Below are positions 34,758 to 45,008 of a DNA stretch of 45,008 nucleotides, piece after piece; the stretch's first letter is position 1; each line of letters opens with the position of its first letter. Source of the stretch: Microcaldota archaeon. GTDB lineage: Archaea; Micrarchaeota; Micrarchaeia; Micrarchaeales; CABMGC01. The notes beneath the pieces were generated by a model. That model was not told the origin of the DNA. It saw only the letters and a list, made by a program, of their open reading frames with translations, and did not search any database. A program made the translations under genes and the position numbers. Location: NCBI GenBank assembly GCA_028867335.1, contig JAGWGN010000007.1, positions 1-45,008 on the forward strand, written 5' to 3'.

Positions 34758-35429
34758 TTATTGGCGCTCCATCCCTACTCCACAACTACCCCCATTGCCG
34801 CAGCTCTTGCATCCTGGATTCGACGACGCACCGCAGTTGCCGTCTTCCCCGATTTTCAGTTCTCCCCACACGCGACTTTCCGGATCGCCAAAAAGCCTAT
34901 GGTATTTGCTGAGGGTATTCTGATATGCCTCTCGCGTATGTTCTCTGGTTTCATCGGTGCTTGGGATATGGTCGATAAATTTCCCAAAGAGGCTATCACA
35001 AAATTTGCGATATTCTACCGTGTCCAATATGAACAAATGCCAGTACATATCTACGCCCCTAGCAGGTGCAATACTCGCCTTCGGCTCAACTATTATAAGG
35101 GACATGAACTTTCTGAATTCTGTTTCCAATGTTTTTGCTAGTTTTTCATCAACCTTTCCAAAAATCTCCTCTAGTGGATAAAGTTGCTCGGTTTTAATCT
35201 GTGCTGGATGGTTCTTGGATATAACTTTTTCAGTTAATTTTGAAAAATCATACCCCCACAAAATTTCCAGATTTTTATGTACTTCCATCGAAAATCCAAA
35301 TTTTTGCACCCTGTCACTAAATCCTGCCTTTAAATTCGCATCCGTCGACTCTGCAATATTTGATTGCCTTAGCATCAGTTCAAGTTTCGGCTTATCACCC
35401 ATCACTTCGATGTTTATTTTTTGTTTCAT
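34758..35429 (-). CDS. GRDP-like (glycine-rich domain / DUF1399-type) protein
   Basis: The protein has 223 residues. The central part matches the pattern of glycine-rich-domain proteins: ARGVDMYWHLFILDTVEYRK (D127, W130, H131), then FCDSLFGKFIDHIPSTDETR, then YQNTLSKYHRLFGDP and VWG. The C-terminus is Cys/Gly-rich (C199, C207, C210, C216) and may bind a metal. In the family the D-x-x-W-H core is conserved, but the function is not established. A TATA box (ttttaaatatc, about 35458-35468, minus strand) and a GGTGG ribosome site precede ATG 35429. AT-rich, probably transferred. Confidence 0.65.
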   Translation of the reverse strand: MKQKINIEVMGDKPKLELMLRQSNIAESTDANLKAGFSDRVQKFGFSMEVHKNLEILWGYDFSKLTEKVISKNHPAQIKTEQLYPLEEIFGKVDEKLAKTLETEFRKFMSLIIVEPKASIAPARGVDMYWHLFILDTVEYRKFCDSLFGKFIDHIPSTDETREHTREAYQNTLSKYHRLFGDPESRVWGELKIGEDGNCGASSNPGCKSCGNGGSCGVGMERQ

Positions 35430-37471: not shown

Positions 37472-37552
37472 ATCAGTAGTATAGTAGTATATATTTATAT
37501 ATGTATAGATTTACAATAGTATTATAGTATTATATAATACTCAGTGAAATAT
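37472..37552. promoter_or_regulatory. Divergent promoter/operator of the insertion sequence
   Basis: An 81-base, very AT-rich region between the RHH and transposase genes, built of repeated agtat/atact elements, including the palindrome gtattatataatac (about 37526-37539). It contains TATA boxes in both directions. The repeats are good candidates for RHH binding. Confidence 0.55.
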
Positions 37553-38758
37553 ATGGACACGAGAGAATTCAAGGGTTTGCAGATTGCAAAACAAGGCAAG
37601 ATAAAGAAACTGCAAAATAGCTGGCTAGTGCCAAGCGAATCGCGCTTTGATTTTTACAGCGTTAAATTGGTAGGCGACAAGAAGGTTTGCAACTGCGCCG
37701 ATTTCGATCTCAGGCAGCAGAAATGCAAGCACATTTGGAGCGTGGAATTATATCAAAAACGGATCGGTAAAAAGGATGAAATTGAAAAGATAGAAAAGTT
37801 GGCTAAGCCAAGTGCACCGCAAAATTGGCACGCCTACAATCTTGCACAGACCAAGGAGCAAGAGATGTTTATGGAACTGCTTTCGGATCTGTGTGGGGAC
37901 GTTGAGGAAGCGCTTTACAGCTTCGGCAGGCCTAAACTCTCAGCCAGGGAGATGATATTCTCCTCAGCCCTCAAGGTTTATTCCACATTTTCGCTAAGGC
38001 GCTTCATCGGGGATATGCAGATTGCTCTGGATAAGGGTTACATTGCACATAAATGCGCATTCAGCTCTGTTAGTAACTACATGATGGATGAGAAGCTAAC
38101 CCCCGTAATACAGCATTTAATCACATTGTCTGCCATGCCGCTAAAGAGCGTTGAGACCAAGTTCGCAATAGACAGCTCTGGGTTCAGAACCACTAAATTT
38201 AGCGAGTATTGCAGGGAGAAGCATGCAGTGGATGTTGAACACCAGTGGATCAAGGCCCACATCTGCTGTGGCGTTAAGACTAACATCATAACCGCTGTGG
38301 AAGTCGGTGTGGGAAACAATAACAAAAGCGGGGATTCGCCGCAGTTTATACCCTTGGCCAAACAGACGCACGATGCTGGTTTCAACATACAAGAGATGAG
38401 TGCGGATAAGGCATACTCCGGAAGGGATAATCTTGCATATATTGATGAAATAGGCGCAATCCCATTCATTCCATTCAGGAAGGGGACTGGCGGTCAACCC
38501 AAAGGCAACCACATCTGGCGCAAGATGTTCAACTACTTTGCTTATAATAGAGAGGATTTCCTGCAGCACTATCACCAGCGCTCGAATGTGGAAAGCACAT
38601 TCAACATGATCAAGAGCAAATTCACAGATTTGATAAGGAGCAGGAACGAAACAGCGCAGCTCAATGAGCTCCTGTTGAAGGTTCTGTGCCATAACATTGC
38701 GGTGCTCATTCACGAGATGTATGAATTAGGCATAGAGCCTAGCTTTATTCCTAAGTGA
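37553..38758 (+). CDS. DDE transposase with N-terminal SWIM zinc finger
   Basis: The protein has 401 residues from ATG 37553 (a GTG at 37544 is also in frame). The N-terminal SWIM finger is CxCx9CxH: C46, C48, C58 and H60. The catalytic core shows D207 (FAIDSSGF), D285 (SADKAYSGRDN) and E347 (RSNVESTFNMIKSKF), the order and spacing of IS4/IS5-like DDE enzymes. SWIM fingers on such transposases occur in archaeal elements. The gene appears intact, so the element may be active. Confidence 0.88.
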   Translation: MDTREFKGLQIAKQGKIKKLQNSWLVPSESRFDFYSVKLVGDKKVCNCADFDLRQQKCKHIWSVELYQKRIGKKDEIEKIEKLAKPSAPQNWHAYNLAQTKEQEMFMELLSDLCGDVEEALYSFGRPKLSAREMIFSSALKVYSTFSLRRFIGDMQIALDKGYIAHKCAFSSVSNYMMDEKLTPVIQHLITLSAMPLKSVETKFAIDSSGFRTTKFSEYCREKHAVDVEHQWIKAHICCGVKTNIITAVEVGVGNNNKSGDSPQFIPLAKQTHDAGFNIQEMSADKAYSGRDNLAYIDEIGAIPFIPFRKGTGGQPKGNHIWRKMFNYFAYNREDFLQHYHQRSNVESTFNMIKSKFTDLIRSRNETAQLNELLLKVLCHNIAVLIHEMYELGIEPSFIPK

Positions 38759-38959: not shown

Positions 38960-39949
38960 CTAAGCCGCGCAGCTCGCCGAGCTGCCTCCGTTGCTTGATT
39001 GTGGCAGTAGCTTGTATTTCTGGTCGTATTGCGCCGCATGTATCGCCCCGCTCAGGCTCGAGAAATTATATCCAACAATATAGCTTGCTGGCACATTGTT
39101 CCAGTCAATTCCATGCGAGCGCAGGAAGATCGCGTCGTACATATAATATTGGGTAAAATAGAACGAATTGAACTCCTTCACAGCTTCAAACGTCGCATTT
39201 TCACTATTGCCCTGTGATATCATTAGCTCTACTAGGGCTAGCGCTGCGGCACCGTGGTTGCAGTCAGGGAACGCGGTAGGGTTGTCGCAGCAGGGCCTAT
39301 ACGAATGCGTGGCAACATCGTACATCAGCGTTTGCTGTTGTGGCGTCAGTGCTATTAAGTTCAGCTTTCCAAGCTGCAGATTTCCAAGTGGCTGATAGCC
39401 TCCAGTACTTGCAAAGTTGTTTGGATCATTTCCTGACTGCGTTATAGGGCCGCTGTTTATTATCGGATTGTTGTTGTTTACCCCTATTCCCCACAACACG
39501 TCAAGAGTGAAAAGTGCATACGAATTATTCAAAATTACATTTGCATTGCTTGTGCCGTTCAAAATTTTCTTCTGCTCCAGGGTCAGAGGCTCTCCGGAGC
39601 TGTTGAGAATTGCTGAAAGCGCCGAAACATTTAGGGCATTTGAATCAACAAGCTGTTTGGCAGTTTTACCCCATCTGACTGGAAACGTGTAGCCCTGATT
39701 GGGTAGCACCTGCTGTATCAAACTATTGTAGTTTATCTGGGATGCATTTATTTGAGGAGCTGATGCAAACAGGGCCAATTGGTTTGAGGGTAAAAGGATA
39801 GCGGGCTTAGATACGTTATAGTGATTGCTTAATTGAAAATATGATACAGATAATACCAGAGCAACAAACACAAAACCACCTAACATGGCGACAGGGGCCT
39901 TGCTCTTCTGTTTTTTCAAATTTCTCCAAATTTTTCTCTTTGTCTTCAT
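38960..39949 (-). CDS. Membrane-anchored extracytoplasmic protein with CC...DCNHG motif
   Basis: The protein has 329 residues: basic N-terminus, one membrane helix (about 20-40) and an outer domain rich in N and S with many sequons. The core is YRPCCDNPTAFPDCNHGAAA (C220, C221, C230, H232) followed by a helix (ALALVELMISQG). The same layout (Q-rich helix, CC, C, HA, helix) occurs in the protein at 41105-41713, so the two are paralogues. The CC...C.H set suggests a metal or haem site, or paired redox cysteines. It is the last gene of a five-gene operon; its ATG overlaps the stop of the preceding gene by 4 bases. Confidence 0.7.
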   Translation of the reverse strand: MKTKRKIWRNLKKQKSKAPVAMLGGFVFVALVLSVSYFQLSNHYNVSKPAILLPSNQLALFASAPQINASQINYNSLIQQVLPNQGYTFPVRWGKTAKQLVDSNALNVSALSAILNSSGEPLTLEQKKILNGTSNANVILNNSYALFTLDVLWGIGVNNNNPIINSGPITQSGNDPNNFASTGGYQPLGNLQLGKLNLIALTPQQQTLMYDVATHSYRPCCDNPTAFPDCNHGAAALALVELMISQGNSENATFEAVKEFNSFYFTQYYMYDAIFLRSHGIDWNNVPASYIVGYNFSSLSGAIHAAQYDQKYKLLPQSSNGGSSASCAA

Positions 39950-40578
39950 TTGCTCACTATAAGTTTTATCTGCTCTCCATCTTTTAATATTATATTTCTA
40001 TAATTTCCGCTATATAGCGTATTGTCAACATAAGCTGTTATGGAATTATTGAACAGTGACTGCACATTATGGCTTGGTCCATAGTTTCCATAGTATTGAG
40101 TTTTGTTCCATACGTCAATAAATTGTCCTAGTGTGTAATTTGAAACTGTGGGCGATTCAAGATGTATTGTGCCTGTTGAATCGTGAGTGTGGAGCCAGTA
40201 GAGGCAAGAGCTTTTTATGCCTATCTGCGGCACTGTAACATTATTGCCGTTATACACAATGCTTAAATGCGGATGTATGTGAATTACGCTGCCTTCGAAG
40301 GAATTACATTGAATGCCATCTACGGTCTGTGCATTTACGACAGAAGGCGTCGAAGTTAAAAAGAAAATAATAATCGCAACAAAAACTGCTACTCCTGCAA
40401 GGGCCGATGTCTTTCTATTTACAATTCCACCTGACAATTTAGAGGTGATGCTGCTTGCTTTTGCTACAGTTCTTGAAGTCTCTTGGGAATCAATAATATT
40501 GTGTTTATCCTTAAGGTGCTGCAGTAAAGAGATATCAGAGCCGAATTCTTGGCCGCATTTATCACATCTTAGAGTCAT
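39946..40578 (-). CDS. C2H2 zinc finger - membrane helix - HIHPH extracytoplasmic protein
   Basis: The protein has 210 residues. Residues 5-26 are a classic C2H2 finger (CDKC then LLQHLKDKH; C5, C8, H21, H26) on the inner side. A membrane helix runs from about 58 to 75. The outer domain holds SVIHIHPHLSIVYNGNNV (H100, H102, H104), then CLYWLHTHDSTGTIHLESP (C125, H130, H132, H139), a His/Cys set well suited to copper. A GTG at 40590 would add MCNC; ATG 40578 is preferred. The pairing of an inner finger with an outer His cluster suggests sensing or an anchor. The family has no function that I know of. Confidence 0.7.
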   Translation of the reverse strand: MTLRCDKCGQEFGSDISLLQHLKDKHNIIDSQETSRTVAKASSITSKLSGGIVNRKTSALAGVAVFVAIIIFFLTSTPSVVNAQTVDGIQCNSFEGSVIHIHPHLSIVYNGNNVTVPQIGIKSSCLYWLHTHDSTGTIHLESPTVSNYTLGQFIDVWNKTQYYGNYGPSHNVQSLFNNSITAYVDNTLYSGNYRNIILKDGEQIKLIVSK

Positions 40579-40592
40579 ACAATTACACACTT

Positions 40593-41099
40593 TTATTTTG
40601 TCTTAACCTTGCAAATGGGTTCGGAAAATTTATTTAGATAATATCCTATTGCTGCGAGGTTAAAAATTATTAATGCCCCAAAAATATATGGATTGTAGTT
40701 TTTTAAAAATGAGATAAATGTTAATACGTTGGGGCTGCTTATGCCTGCCGCTGTTGCTACTACAGCTGGAAAAGTAGTAGTGCAGCCGCATAAGCCGGTA
40801 CCTGATGCTAGAGTAGCAAAGCTTGTAGCAGTTCCTGAGGTCTTTGCGTTGTTTCTTATTGTGTTTTTTATGGAATATATCGCAATTGTCAGCGCAATTG
40901 ATGAGGTAGCAACCAGCCCAAAAATCAGGAATCCTGAAGTCCTGACCATCACTGCTCCGCCGCCTTGGACATAGGCAAGATAAAGGAATAGACCATAATA
41001 TGCGACCGCCAAAAACAGGTTTAATGCAATGTATTTTGGCTTATAGATGCTTCTCATCACTGGGAGTACAGCATTGAAATATGATTTCTTCTTGTGCAT
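40593..41099 (-). CDS. Four-helix membrane protein with CGC motif (three-cysteine family)
   Basis: The protein has 168 residues and four hydrophobic segments (about 24-45, 54-76, 92-122, 128-153). C104 and C106 (GLCGCTTTFP) begin the third segment after a Ser/Thr/Gly stretch, and C163 (EPICK) follows the last. It is homologous to the protein at 21871-22383, with the same cysteine spacing. In both loci it is beside a secreted thioredoxin-fold protein. Likely roles are electron transfer across the membrane or metal passage; both are inference. It is spaced 14 bases from the next gene and 5 from the previous one. Confidence 0.75.
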   Translation of the reverse strand: MHKKKSYFNAVLPVMRSIYKPKYIALNLFLAVAYYGLFLYLAYVQGGGAVMVRTSGFLIFGLVATSSIALTIAIYSIKNTIRNNAKTSGTATSFATLASGTGLCGCTTTFPAVVATAAGISSPNVLTFISFLKNYNPYIFGALIIFNLAAIGYYLNKFSEPICKVKTK

Positions 41100-41104
41100 T
41101 AAAC

Positions 41105-41713
41105 TCAGCCACCGCAGCAGTCTTCAAGGTCAATTATATGCGCTACCTTAATCGCATCGAAATTGTAGGTTTTTATGAGATATTTTGCAAGTCCTGCGTG
41201 CGCATACCATGCCCAGCACTGGCAGCAGCACCAGCCATGATCAGCAGTAATGGTTGAAGCGTCATTAAATACTGCAGTCTGGCTTTGGTTCAGGGTTATA
41301 TTGTAATAATTAAGCATCTGCTTTACCTGCGCCACAGAAACATTGTACGGGTTTTGAGGTATTGCTGGTATATTTGTGTAGTTGTTCTTTAATTCGGTAA
41401 TTTGCTGCACGTAGTGGTTGTAGTCCATAGGGCTGCAACAGGAGCCCTGGAAGTAGGTGTTATTTGGCTGGGAGTTTACTGATTTATATATTGCAGCCAG
41501 ATTGCCCAAATATGCGCACTGATCGCTGGTAGCTTGGCTCAGCGCTTGAAACTGTAAATGCATCGAATTATCAGAAGCTGAGCTTTTTGAAAAAGATGGT
41601 GTTGAAGATGAATTCATTAACATGAATCCAGCTATTACGGCAACTACGGCGACTGCTAAAATTGCCAAAACAGTTATATTTCTCTTTTTAAAACTAATTA
41701 TTTCCTCATTCAT
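41105..41713 (-). CDS. Membrane-anchored cysteine-rich extracytoplasmic protein (WCCCQC motif)
   Basis: The protein has 202 residues: membrane helix at about 13-33, then an outer domain with nine cysteines: C66, the pair C92-C93, the cluster C162-C163-C164 and C166 in DHGWCCCQCWAWYAHAGLAK, and a C-terminal CCGG (C199, C200). H159 and H172 flank the cluster. It is a paralogue of the protein at 38960-39949. The density of vicinal cysteines fits metal (Cu, Hg, As) binding or disulphide relay. A purine-rich AGGGGG ribosome site precedes the ATG. Confidence 0.7.
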   Translation of the reverse strand: MNEEIISFKKRNITVLAILAVAVVAVIAGFMLMNSSSTPSFSKSSASDNSMHLQFQALSQATSDQCAYLGNLAAIYKSVNSQPNNTYFQGSCCSPMDYNHYVQQITELKNNYTNIPAIPQNPYNVSVAQVKQMLNYYNITLNQSQTAVFNDASTITADHGWCCCQCWAWYAHAGLAKYLIKTYNFDAIKVAHIIDLEDCCGG

Positions 41714-41752
41714 TTTTAAACCCCCTGCTTAGATAATATCATTTTAAGGCCA

Positions 41753-42523
41753 TTATGCAGCTGATAGCTGTTTATCAATATTTTGTTGTATAGCATAATA
41801 GGGCTGCGCACCTGTAATCTGCACGTATCCTTTTTTACTATTGCCTATGAAGAATGTAGGTGTTCCGCTCACACCGCTGCTCTGCCCTAATTGTGTTAAA
41901 TTTTGAACTCGCGACTGATACTTCTGGCTGTCTAAACATGAGTTGAATTGTTGAGCATTGAGGCCTGCTATATTAGTGGCTAAGGCTTTGACCTTATCTG
42001 CTGTTGCCCATCCAGAATTTTCTGTTCCTTGGTGAGAATACATGTAATCGTGATATTCATAATATTTCCCTTGATCGCTTGCACACCATGCTCCCTGACC
42101 TAAGGTTTGTGAATCTGGCCCTAAGAATTGGAAATCTAAGAAGTAGAATTTTATTTTTCCGGTATTGGTGTAATTCTGCATTACTTGTGGCTCGCTTTGC
42201 TGAAAGAACCTTTCACAGAAAGGACATTGATAATCGCCGAATTCTACAAAGTTTATTGTTGAGGAGTTAGAGCCTCTAAATGGCGCATAGGAAGGTATTG
42301 CAAGGTTTGTACTTCCTGAACTTGCACTGTTTCCTCCGCCCGAGCCGCTCGATCCTCCTGGAATACTTGTTGTTGGAATGCTTACCGTTCCTGTCCCAGA
42401 AAGCGTAGGCGGTGCCTTGCTTGCTGGAGAGCCTCCAATGAACCAGTTAGTTACAAAACCGGCTAGAAATCCTACCATCAAAAAAGCAACGGCAATCATT
42501 TTAACGTAAGTGGTCCTTTTCAT
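41753..42523 (-). CDS. DsbA-like thiol-disulphide oxidoreductase, membrane-anchored
   Basis: The protein has 256 residues from ATG 42523: a membrane anchor (about 9-28), a Ser/Gly/Pro-rich linker to about residue 85, then a DsbA/thioredoxin domain beginning NFVEFGDYQCPFCERFF with the CPFC active site (C100, C103). The helical insert (GQGAWCASDQGKYYEYHDYM) and the cis-Pro loop (SGVSGTPTFFIGN) are typical. It forms or isomerises disulphides in exported proteins. The frame is open further upstream to 42634, but that part contains the promoter. It is the first gene of the five-gene operon and probably acts on the cysteine-rich products downstream. Confidence 0.88.
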   Translation of the reverse strand: MKRTTYVKMIAVAFLMVGFLAGFVTNWFIGGSPASKAPPTLSGTGTVSIPTTSIPGGSSGSGGGNSASSGSTNLAIPSYAPFRGSNSSTINFVEFGDYQCPFCERFFQQSEPQVMQNYTNTGKIKFYFLDFQFLGPDSQTLGQGAWCASDQGKYYEYHDYMYSHQGTENSGWATADKVKALATNIAGLNAQQFNSCLDSQKYQSRVQNLTQLGQSSGVSGTPTFFIGNSKKGYVQITGAQPYYAIQQNIDKQLSAA

Positions 42524-42575: not shown

Positions 42576-42620
42576 ATATATTTTATAGGTATATAAAGCT
42601 TTGCATATTTTGTAAAGCTT
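42576..42620 (-). promoter_or_regulatory. Promoter of the five-gene metal/thiol operon
   Basis: On the minus strand, two TATA-like boxes (ctttatatacc and ctataaaatatat) lie about 55-75 bases before ATG 42523. Just upstream, taaagctt occurs twice (42594-42601 and 42613-42620), each copy centred on the palindrome AAGCTT, a possible operator overlapping the TATA box. No TACAnnTGTA-type BlaI/CopY box was seen. Confidence 0.4.
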
Positions 42621-42873: not shown

Positions 42874-43227
42874 ATGAAAGAGGGGAAATTTGATAAATTT
42901 CTAAGCCCTTTAGAGGATGTTGTAGTTAACGTGCTATTTTCGAAAAAAGAGCTTACGAGCAGGGAGATCTTCAGATTATTAAAGAAAAAGGGTAGTCGGG
43001 TTGCGCTTACAAGCATTGCCGTCACTCTTGATAGGCTGCATTCTAAGGGATTAGTTACAAGAAGAATGGAGACGTGTAGGGGCGGCTTTAGGTACGTTTA
43101 TACAGTCAGGGGAAATAAAAATGACGTATACAGACTGATTCTTGGCAGGACAGTTGATAGGCTAATGAAAAGATTTGGTCCAATAGCTGCGAGCTACTTC
43201 AACGAAAAATTCGGAAAAGGTGTGTGA
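42874..43227 (+). CDS. BlaI/MecI/CopY-family repressor
   Basis: The protein has 117 residues. The winged helix is typical of the family: LSPLEDVVVNVLFSKKELTS, then IFRLLKKKGSRVALTSIAVT (recognition helix), then LDRLHSKGLVTRRMETCRGG (wing with C68) and FRYVYTV. The C-terminal helical part (about 85-117) would dimerise and is where BlaI proteins are cut. ATG 42874 is chosen because of the TATA box; an in-frame start at 42817 is unlikely. The next gene, a membrane metalloprotease, starts directly after the stop (TGAATG). The pair mirrors BlaI-BlaR1, here beside a copper-type ATPase. Confidence 0.83.
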   Translation: MKEGKFDKFLSPLEDVVVNVLFSKKELTSREIFRLLKKKGSRVALTSIAVTLDRLHSKGLVTRRMETCRGGFRYVYTVRGNKNDVYRLILGRTVDRLMKRFGPIAASYFNEKFGKGV

Positions 43228-43977
43228 ATGGATATAATTCTATATATATTAACGTGCATTTGGACATTTATATCGAATCCATTTTATGGATTCGTTGTGT
43301 TTTTAGCAATCTCTTTGGCAATTGCTACAGTTTTTGCAATAAACAACAGAACAACAAATCCGCATAAAATGACCAGATTGACGTATGTACATTTGGCAGC
43401 TATCTTCACGCCTATTCTTTTGTTTGGAGGCCATATGAATTGCAGCGGAGGGCTACTTGCATGTGGTATGCCAGCTATAATTTCACAGTTTATTTTAGGC
43501 TCGTTTTTGGCCACAATTATAAGCGTATATCTGATATTGCCGATGGTCTATCCTATTTTATACAGGGCTAGAAGGATAGCAGAGGGTAGATTGTATGAGA
43601 GGTTAAACACACTATCTGCAACTTTAGATTTGAAAACACCAAAATTGTACGTAGCAGATTGTGGTTTGCCCATTTCGTTTTCTGTTTCTGGAGTAAGGCC
43701 AGCAGTGTTTATTTCTGTTGCAATGTTGGAATTGATGAAAGAGAGGGAGTTGGATGCAATCTTTGTCCATGAGCTTACACATATTAGAAATTCGACACCA
43801 AACTTGAAATCTTTAGTGTCAGTTGCAAGATTATTTTCTCCGCTTTATATGCTGGTAAGAGCTGATGAAATTCTCCAGAGAGAAGAGCTGCACGCTGACA
43901 TATCAGTTCTTCAAATAAGTTCTTTGTCACCATACCTCTATTCAGCAAAGGCAAAGATCAGTGCTGTAAATATTTAG
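43228..43977 (+). CDS. BlaR1-like membrane metallopeptidase (M56/M48)
   Basis: The protein has 249 residues. Membrane segments are at about 5-35, 50-70 and 85-110, followed by a zinc-protease domain with HELTH (H181, E182, H185) and a likely third ligand in REELHAD. The segment FGGHMNCSGGLLACGMP (H69, M70, C72, C79, M81) between helices is rich in soft metal ligands and could be the signal-binding site. Unlike BlaR1 it has no C-terminal penicillin-binding domain. Expected role: on sensing metal, cleave the co-encoded repressor. The exact family (M56 or M48) is not certain. Confidence 0.75.
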   Translation: MDIILYILTCIWTFISNPFYGFVVFLAISLAIATVFAINNRTTNPHKMTRLTYVHLAAIFTPILLFGGHMNCSGGLLACGMPAIISQFILGSFLATIISVYLILPMVYPILYRARRIAEGRLYERLNTLSATLDLKTPKLYVADCGLPISFSVSGVRPAVFISVAMLELMKERELDAIFVHELTHIRNSTPNLKSLVSVARLFSPLYMLVRADEILQREELHADISVLQISSLSPYLYSAKAKISAVNI

Positions 43978-44009: not shown

Positions 44010-44156
44010 ATGAGGGATCTAGTTTGTGGAATGGAAGTAAGCGAGAGCAGCAAATTTGCAAGCAGCTATAAAGGCAGAAAATATTATTTCTGCTCAGGCA
44101 AATGCAAGGAAGCCTTTGACAAAAGCCCTGATAAGTACGCCAAGGCAGATGATTAG
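44010..44156 (+). CDS. Stand-alone YHS/TRASH-type metal-binding protein, 48 residues
   Basis: Too short for usual gene calling. It begins MRDLVCGMEVSES, then YKGRKYYFCSGKCKEAFDKS, the YHS/TRASH pattern with C6, C28 and C32. The same module opens the P-type ATPase two genes downstream. Such small proteins are metallochaperones or sensors in archaeal copper operons. The next gene starts 3 bases after its stop. Confidence 0.8.
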   Translation: MRDLVCGMEVSESSKFASSYKGRKYYFCSGKCKEAFDKSPDKYAKADD

Positions 44157-44159
44157 CTA

Positions 44160-44309
44160 ATGGAATACCAATGCAGCGTGTGCGGTTTGCATTATAAAGA
44201 GGGGGAGCTGGCTCGCAGATGCTACAGGTGGTGCTCTGCGCACAACAGCTGCAACCTTGGGATAGCAAGAAATTCCTTGGAAGCGAGCAGGAGCAGAAAG
44301 CGAGAGTGA
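44160..44309 (+). CDS. Small Cys/His-rich protein of copper operon type, 49 residues
   Basis: Metal ligands are evenly placed: C5, C8, H11, C21, C25, H28, C31 in CSVCGLHYKEGELARRCYRW then CSAHNSCNLGI. Proteins of this pattern occur beside copper ATPases in archaea; the function is not known to me. It lies 4 bases before the ATPase ATG. Confidence 0.7.
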   Translation: MEYQCSVCGLHYKEGELARRCYRWCSAHNSCNLGIARNSLEASRSRKRE

Positions 44310-44313
44310 ATCA

Positions 44314-45008
44314 ATGGCAACAGACCCTATTTGCGGAATGTACGTGAATGAGGCAGAGTCCAAGCTGACCGGCGAGAGGAGCGGCAGAAAATACTATTTC
44401 TGCAGCGTGAACTGCAGACTGCAGTTCGAGAAGCCTGAGAAGGAAATGTCTATGCTGAAAACGGCCCTGCTTGTTTCGTGGCCGCTTACCATAATCGTAG
44501 CTGTATTGACATATGCGCTCCAGATAGCATATGCAAACTACATAATGTTCGTACTCGCTGGCATTGTCCAGTTCTATGCAGGCTCTAGGTTCTATGCTAG
44601 TACTCTCGATGCCATAAAGAACAAGTCAGCCAACATGGACACTCTGATAGCTATAGGCACTAGTGCGGCTTGGGCTTACAGCACCATAGTTACCTTTATG
44701 CCCAGAGCTTTCCCAACAGGAGGCGTTTATTTCGACACATCAACAATCATAATATCGCTAATACTGACCGGAACGTATATGCAGAGGCTTGCGGAGTCTC
44801 GTGCATCAAATGCGATTTCTGCCCTCATATCATTGCAGCCCAAGATAGCGCACATAATTAAAGGGAATAAGGTTATAGACAAACCGATTGAGGAGATAGT
44901 GCCAGGGGACTTATTGCTTGTCAAACCTGGGGAAAAAATTCCTACAGATTCGATTGTCGTAGATGGGGAGAGCTCTATTGATGAATCTATGATTACAGGA
45001 GAAAGCAT
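44314..45008 (+). CDS. copA: Heavy-metal (copper-type) P1B ATPase, 5' part
   Basis: Metal export or import pump, of which the first 231 residues lie in the window; the gene continues beyond it. An N-terminal YHS domain (DPICGMYV, then SGRKYYFCSVNCRLQFE, about 1-40) replaces the usual HMA domain. Membrane helices follow (about 50-70, 75-95, 110-130, 140-160), then the actuator domain with PGDLLLVKPGEKIPTDSIVV and the phosphatase motif TGES at the window edge. The CPC/CPH metal motif and the phosphorylated Asp lie outside, so copper is inferred from the YHS domain and the neighbours. Confidence 0.92.
   Translation, partial: MATDPICGMYVNEAESKLTGERSGRKYYFCSVNCRLQFEKPEKEMSMLKTALLVSWPLTIIVAVLTYALQIAYANYIMFVLAGIVQFYAGSRFYASTLDAIKNKSANMDTLIAIGTSAAWAYSTIVTFMPRAFPTGGVYFDTSTIIISLILTGTYMQRLAESRASNAISALISLQPKIAHIIKGNKVIDKPIEEIVPGDLLLVKPGEKIPTDSIVVDGESSIDESMITGES

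Follow-up and report, generated by a model that had tools for sequence, protein, structure and literature searches.

The window examined here is one whole contig of 45,008 bp from a Microcaldota archaeon, and it carries a set of five co-directional genes on the minus strand, designated A to E in order of transcription. We consider it probable that these genes supply the extracytoplasmic part of a mobile cassette for copper tolerance, with cysteine proteins that rely on disulfide exchange. The gene set is not a local accident; its families travel together with copper and thiol genes in distant archaea and bacteria. The genome of origin (0.96 Mb, about 83% complete) has Candidatus Micrarchaeota bins as its nearest relatives in the named collection. 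The five genes are as follows.

41753 to 42523, minus strand: gene A, a membrane-anchored thiol oxidoreductase of the DsbA/BdbD kind with a CPFC active site (Thioredoxin_4, 2e-24; DSBA, 3.3e-15).
41105 to 41713, minus strand: gene B, the WCCCQC protein, anchored by one transmembrane (TM) segment and mostly helical, with eight invariant Cys (alignment and AlphaFold (AF2) model).
40593 to 41099, minus strand: gene C, a multi-TM protein with a CxC motif and a C-terminal Cys (CxC conservation; hhalign to the Cmem family).
39946 to 40590, minus strand: gene D, with a C2H2-finger-like N-terminus, one TM segment, and an outer domain with five invariant His (conservation; relatives near B).
38960 to 39949, minus strand: gene E, anchored by one TM segment, with the signature RPCC(D/N/G)N...DCNHG and a C-terminal Cys (conservation; AF2 model).

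A previous reading of the sequence alone had placed five genes at these positions and in this order, spaced by 39 bp or less with one 4-bp overlap; the gaps measured here, 39, 5, 2, and -4 bp, agree with it throughout. It is from this tight spacing alone that we infer expression of A to E as a single transcript. The open reading frame (ORF) of gene A is open to 42634. Genes A, B, D, and E each encode one N-terminal TM segment, and gene C encodes at least three.

Gene A encodes a protein of exported type with the thioredoxin fold, in which a CxxC motif (CPFC) and a cis-Pro (TPT) were both read from the sequence, placing it in the DsbA/BdbD family. Its nearest solved structure is BdbD (1.2e-19). 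This protein may oxidise the products of B and E. Family status for B, C, D, and E was judged from Pfam and NCBIfam cut-offs together with fold and sequence comparison against PDB, and none of the four matches a Pfam or NCBIfam model over its cut-off or has a counterpart in PDB, by sequence or, for B and E, by fold; the finger-like N-terminus of D gives only a sub-threshold Pfam match. The sequence-only reading had described four of the five products as having an outer domain or motif rich in Cys/His, and in alignments the Cys/His motifs prove to be conserved. Eight Cys of B (C66, CC92-93, CCCxC162-166, C200) are invariant in all 63 sequences, C220, C221, C230, and H232 of E in 21 of 21, five His of D, which carries the motifs HIHPH and HTHD, in 17 of 17, and the CxC of C in 11 of 11. 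Because these motifs are conserved far outside the window, they cannot be put down to chance. Fold models, which cover B and E, are mostly helical in both cases, with a mean predicted local distance difference test score (pLDDT) of 88.5 for B and 83.1 for E (90-98 in the core). A search of PDB with the two models returned nothing significant, so there is no known relative to reveal their chemistry. The idea that B and E belong to one family was rejected, as the match between them covers only 29 columns around LTxxQQ...CC (probability 76%), too little for homology. Gene C does have a counterpart, the Cmem family found beside B in Candidate Phyla Radiation (CPR) genomes and others (hhalign 91%, E 1.1e-6).

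A genome-wide scan with B recovered 183 relatives (genome stretches), and the best 80 loci were read. These span DPANN, Thaumarchaeota, CPR, Rhizobiales, and others; they are biased toward relatives of the archaeal query, related bins among them are not independent loci, and several contigs are short. Within 6 kb of B, a copper or thiol-redox marker was found in 60 of the 80. DsbA is the most frequent partner (37 loci), followed by a CcdA/multicopper-oxidase cluster (28), E (21), P1B ATPase (21), Cmem (18), D (16), DUF411 (10), C (9), TlpA (9), SCO (9), and cupredoxin (7), with CsoR, BlaI, and PadR-TRASH regulators also represented. Several CPR genomes share the order DsbA-Cmem-B-D, then CsoR-P1B. 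Gene fusions occur as well: six CPR loci have Cmem joined to the N-terminus of E, and in CPR a 49-residue small-Cys domain, likewise encoded in the window, is fused ahead of Cmem-E. Plasmids show this kind of linkage too. On pSinB of Sinorhizobium, DsbA-CcdA-B belongs to a run that also contains SCO, TlpA, CusA, and a P-type ATPase, and in Ensifer the same trio accompanies a multicopper oxidase and DUF411. In Burkholderia, E directly follows the gene for a P-type ATPase, and CueR and CcdA are close by; in Mycolicibacterium, D adjoins BlaI/M56, TlpA, and a P-type ATPase.

Three further observations concern loci that contain B. One locus (L091:3619-5901) encodes a fusion of a multicopper oxidase with a DsbD_TM (CcdA-like) domain, a further case in which thiol transport and copper oxidation are combined near B. 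Pyridine nucleotide-disulphide oxidoreductases resembling MerA lie near B in three bacterial loci (L072, L088, and L115), and at two of these loci a small thioredoxin-like protein accompanies them. Copies of B in the bacterial-labelled bins L061 (a Saccharibacteria bin), L062, and L064 are 43-51% identical to archaeal B, which suggests either recent cross-domain transfer or misbinning.

The A-E operon is divergent to a plus-strand run of genes encoding BlaI, M56, YHS, small-Cys, and P1B ATPase proteins. Copper genes had been noted there on the opposite strand from the sequence alone; they proved to include a YHS protein and a YHS-P1B ATPase, together with a BlaI-M56 pair. The features of the run, and the putative regulatory site that precedes gene A, are listed here.

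42590 to 42620, minus strand: candidate BlaI operator (TTACA-N5-TGCAAAGCTTTATATA) overlapping the TATA-like box that serves the A-E operon, with an inverted repeat at 42596-42620.
42874 to 43227, plus strand: BlaI/CopY-type repressor (PF03965, 2e-9), in an ORF that opens at GTG 42817.
43228 to 43977, plus strand: M56 (BlaR1-type) membrane metallopeptidase, partner of the repressor (PF05569, 1.3e-8).
44010 to 44156, plus strand: YHS-domain small protein of 48 aa, a probable copper chaperone (PF04945, 3.2e-17).
44160 to 44309, plus strand: small Cys-rich protein of 49 aa, CxxCGxxY...CxxWCxxHxSCN (a domain also found ahead of P1B ATPases in relatives).
44314 to 45008, plus strand: YHS-P1B-type metal ATPase, cut by the contig end (PF00122, 6e-18; PF04945, 3e-10).

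The protein at 44010-44156 is a probable small metallochaperone of the TRASH/YHS type that characterizes copper fitness islands. The ATPase has a YHS metal-binding N-terminal domain and an E1-E2 ATPase domain; its CPC motif would lie beyond the contig end, and is present in a relative in locus L031, an intact CPC-type ATPase to which the window fragment is 83% identical over 231 aa. No HMA-domain protein was found in the window's own genome.

Among 98 genomes of the order, a clear B or E occurs in 14. The sequence-only reading was to be refuted if the genes stood apart in other genomes, with neither one another nor metal genes as neighbours; linkage is what we found, in distant archaea and bacteria and again within the order. 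Genes B, E, and C occur together in loci L030, L031, L032, and L033. Twelve genomes have both a P1B ATPase and B or E, and in six of these the ATPase gene and a cassette gene are no more than 2 kb apart. With about one P1B copy per genome, the binomial probability of such proximity is about 6e-9 for ±5 kb, shared ancestry ignored. A cupredoxin gene lies between B and E in L030 and L031, L031 and L033 have a divergent gene for a PadR regulator that carries a TRASH-like domain, DUF929 and VKOR follow E in L032, and in L041 E itself carries an N-terminal cupredoxin-like domain. The 49-aa small-Cys domain precedes P1B ATPases in relatives also. Gene D is different, with only two weak matches in the order besides the window, and its history therefore differs from that of B and E.

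Two side observations concern E. In five loci without a nearby B (L035:10397-10837, L037:7095-7544, L038:9717-10115, L039:9012-9407, and L040:8076-8462), a protein of 128-149 aa with a conserved (Y/F)xHxMMxxPC motif is encoded directly before E. It is a candidate further partner of E, and the one copy scanned belongs to no Pfam family. In genome G003, E is split over two contig ends (L029:138-764 and L043:13562-13951), the cause being a break in the assembly or else an insertion within the gene.

The adjacent BlaI-family repressor (PF03965) and M56 protease (PF05569) make a pair like PetR-PetP, which in Synechocystis is a copper-responsive switch (PMC7896320). The window's BlaI, encoded beside the copper genes, is the likely regulator of the A-E operon. 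Relatives of this BlaI were found in two of the 98 genomes, the window's own and G071, both divergent from an E operon; in L037, as in the window, the BlaI-M56 pair is divergent from the E operon, and the relative there suggests that translation starts at Met 42874 rather than at GTG 42817. One 16-bp word, identically oriented, occurs in both BlaI-E intergenic regions, a result that none of 2000 shuffles reached. A 26-bp element before gene A, with 21 fixed bases, occurs with at most two mismatches in two of the 98 genomes, in both cases before these operons, the extended element having been derived from those two sites themselves. As would be expected of a repressor site, the shared element overlaps the TATA-like box and the inverted repeat, and we regard it as a candidate BlaI operator; part of the match could reflect common ancestry of the two promoters.

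A working model follows from these assignments, with copper as the presumed metal on account of the neighbouring genes, and with metal binding by each protein, the direction of transfer, and the disulfide chemistry all proposed from sequence. Surplus copper would be sensed by the M56 protease-BlaI pair, and BlaI would then leave its operator on the TATA box of the A-E operon. The YHS chaperone and the P1B ATPase would export Cu(I) from the cytoplasm. Outside, the His-rich D, the Cys-rich B and E, and the membrane Cys protein C would bind, buffer, and pass on copper, sparing surface proteins from damage. Structural disulfides of B and E would be formed by the DsbA protein, A, re-oxidised in turn by a VKOR encoded elsewhere; VKOR was found in 91 of the 98 genomes, the window's genome included. 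In bacteria, CcdA and TlpA partners may hold the metal-binding thiols reduced.

Several known systems resemble parts of this locus. Mobile copper islands have been described in the related micrarchaeon Mia14 (PMC5498576), and the copper fitness islands of Ferroplasma and Mia14 resemble the present locus in being mobile and in combining a small YHS protein, a copper-type P-type ATPase, and a regulator. However, the regulator there is Lrp/AsnC rather than BlaI-M56, and the five-gene extracytoplasmic Cys/His operon is additional here. PetR-PetP is alike in the adjacency of a BlaI-type regulator and an M56 protease, but controls plastocyanin and cytochrome c6, whereas the BlaI-M56 pair here, a candidate copper switch, faces A-E and heads the YHS/P1B run. 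The BdbD/DsbA-VKOR pathway offers a BdbD-like protein as in A, and a VKOR gene is present in this genome and, in L032, next to E; here A is accompanied in its operon by dedicated Cys-rich proteins, and by copper genes, with VKOR elsewhere in the genome. The heavy-metal region of pSinB shares DsbA-CcdA-B with SCO, TlpA, a P-type ATPase, and CusA-type efflux, but no E or D appears in the stretch read, and B is annotated there only as hypothetical. With the mer operon (MerT/MerP) the likeness, a membrane Cys protein plus an outer metal-binding protein, is by analogy only; no sequence relationship was found.

Several points weigh against a role in copper tolerance. None of B, C, D, and E has a known phenotype or known metal binding, and co-location of genes is not function. 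Twenty of the 80 B loci lack any copper or thiol marker, and seven have no recognised partner within 6 kb. Among the 98 relatives the cassette is far rarer than the P1B ATPase (68 genomes), and is for that reason to be viewed as accessory, not as a need. The SCO and TlpA neighbours in Rhizobiales could mean cuproenzyme assembly, and some neighbour genes point to mercury.

The first of these hints leads to the alternative that the proteins deliver copper to an extracytoplasmic cuproprotein such as a cupredoxin, serving metallation rather than detoxification. SCO (9), TlpA (9), and cupredoxin (7) near B among the 80 loci, the cupredoxin between B and E in two archaeal loci, and its fusion to E in a third all favour it, but the window operon has no cupredoxin gene, and copper oxidases were not found in the relatives. 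Haem-copper oxidase (COX1) was found over cut-off in none of the 98 relatives and in none of six CPR carriers tested, and multicopper oxidase in none of the 98. A role in copper assembly of cytochrome oxidase, and multicopper oxidase as a partner in Micrarchaeota, were both rejected on these results. Copper supply to such oxidases is thus not the purpose in these lineages, and we judge metallation as a whole unlikely.

A second alternative, which seems rather improbable, is a disulfide or thiol-stress module in which DsbA and Cys-rich substrates would shield surface proteins from wrong oxidation, copper being merely the commonest cause of stress. The frequency of DsbA (37), the CcdA/copper-oxidase cluster (28), and TlpA (9) at the B loci agrees with this, as do the DUF929 and VKOR genes after E in L032; yet dedicated metal regulators and pumps adjoin the cassette, and the five invariant His of D have no role in thiol exchange.

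It is very unlikely that the module serves mercury or another soft metal (Ag, Cd), with C acting like MerT. E does lie near merA/merB/merP/merT on a Paraburkholderia plasmid, MerA-like flavoproteins occur near B in three loci, and one of 18 Cmem proteins weakly matches MerT (2e-4), but most neighbours are of copper type (CueR, CsoR, CopY-like, DUF411, YHS-P1B) and a profile comparison of Cmem with MerT, using only two MerT sequences, was negative (hhalign probability 0.4%). Cmem was accordingly rejected as a MerT family, and C itself has no Pfam match. Least probable of all is passive co-location of unrelated genes in mobile metal-resistance islands: a transposase beside E, plasmid occurrence, and patchy spread would allow it, but the tight spacing, gene fusions, order conserved across domains, and common promoter element argue otherwise.

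Elsewhere in the window, a DDE transposase (PF01609) with a SWIM finger, at 37544-38758, is convergent with E, some 200 bp from the end of that gene, as would fit the boundary of a mobile island. A 223-aa protein encoded at 34758-35429 on the minus strand has a Cys/Gly-rich tail (GNCGASSNPGCKSCGNGGSCG).

The neighbours linked to the cassette in many phyla include P1B ATPases, YHS/TRASH proteins, CsoR, BlaI, PadR-TRASH, DUF411, SCO, cupredoxins, and multicopper oxidases. Because the families travel with each other and with copper and thiol genes, the guess made from the sequence alone, a metal and thiol system at the cell surface, gains support; the identity of the metal and the chemistry are our inference. 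More tentatively, and with some doubt, we suggest that B, C, D, and E may be an undescribed copper-handling complex outside the membrane that Archaea and Bacteria share and that includes at least two folds absent from PDB; in it, cysteine chemistry controlled by DsbA/CcdA would be coupled to binding, transferring, or oxidising the copper that P1B ATPases export. No description of the A-E gene set was found in a search of the openly available literature. Four nameless protein families recur from CPR and DPANN to rhizobia in the company of copper pumps and disulfide machinery. Such a system would fill a gap concerning the fate of copper outside the membrane in cells without respiratory copper enzymes, and the locus offers a concrete gene set together with a candidate BlaI-M56 copper regulon in an archaeon.

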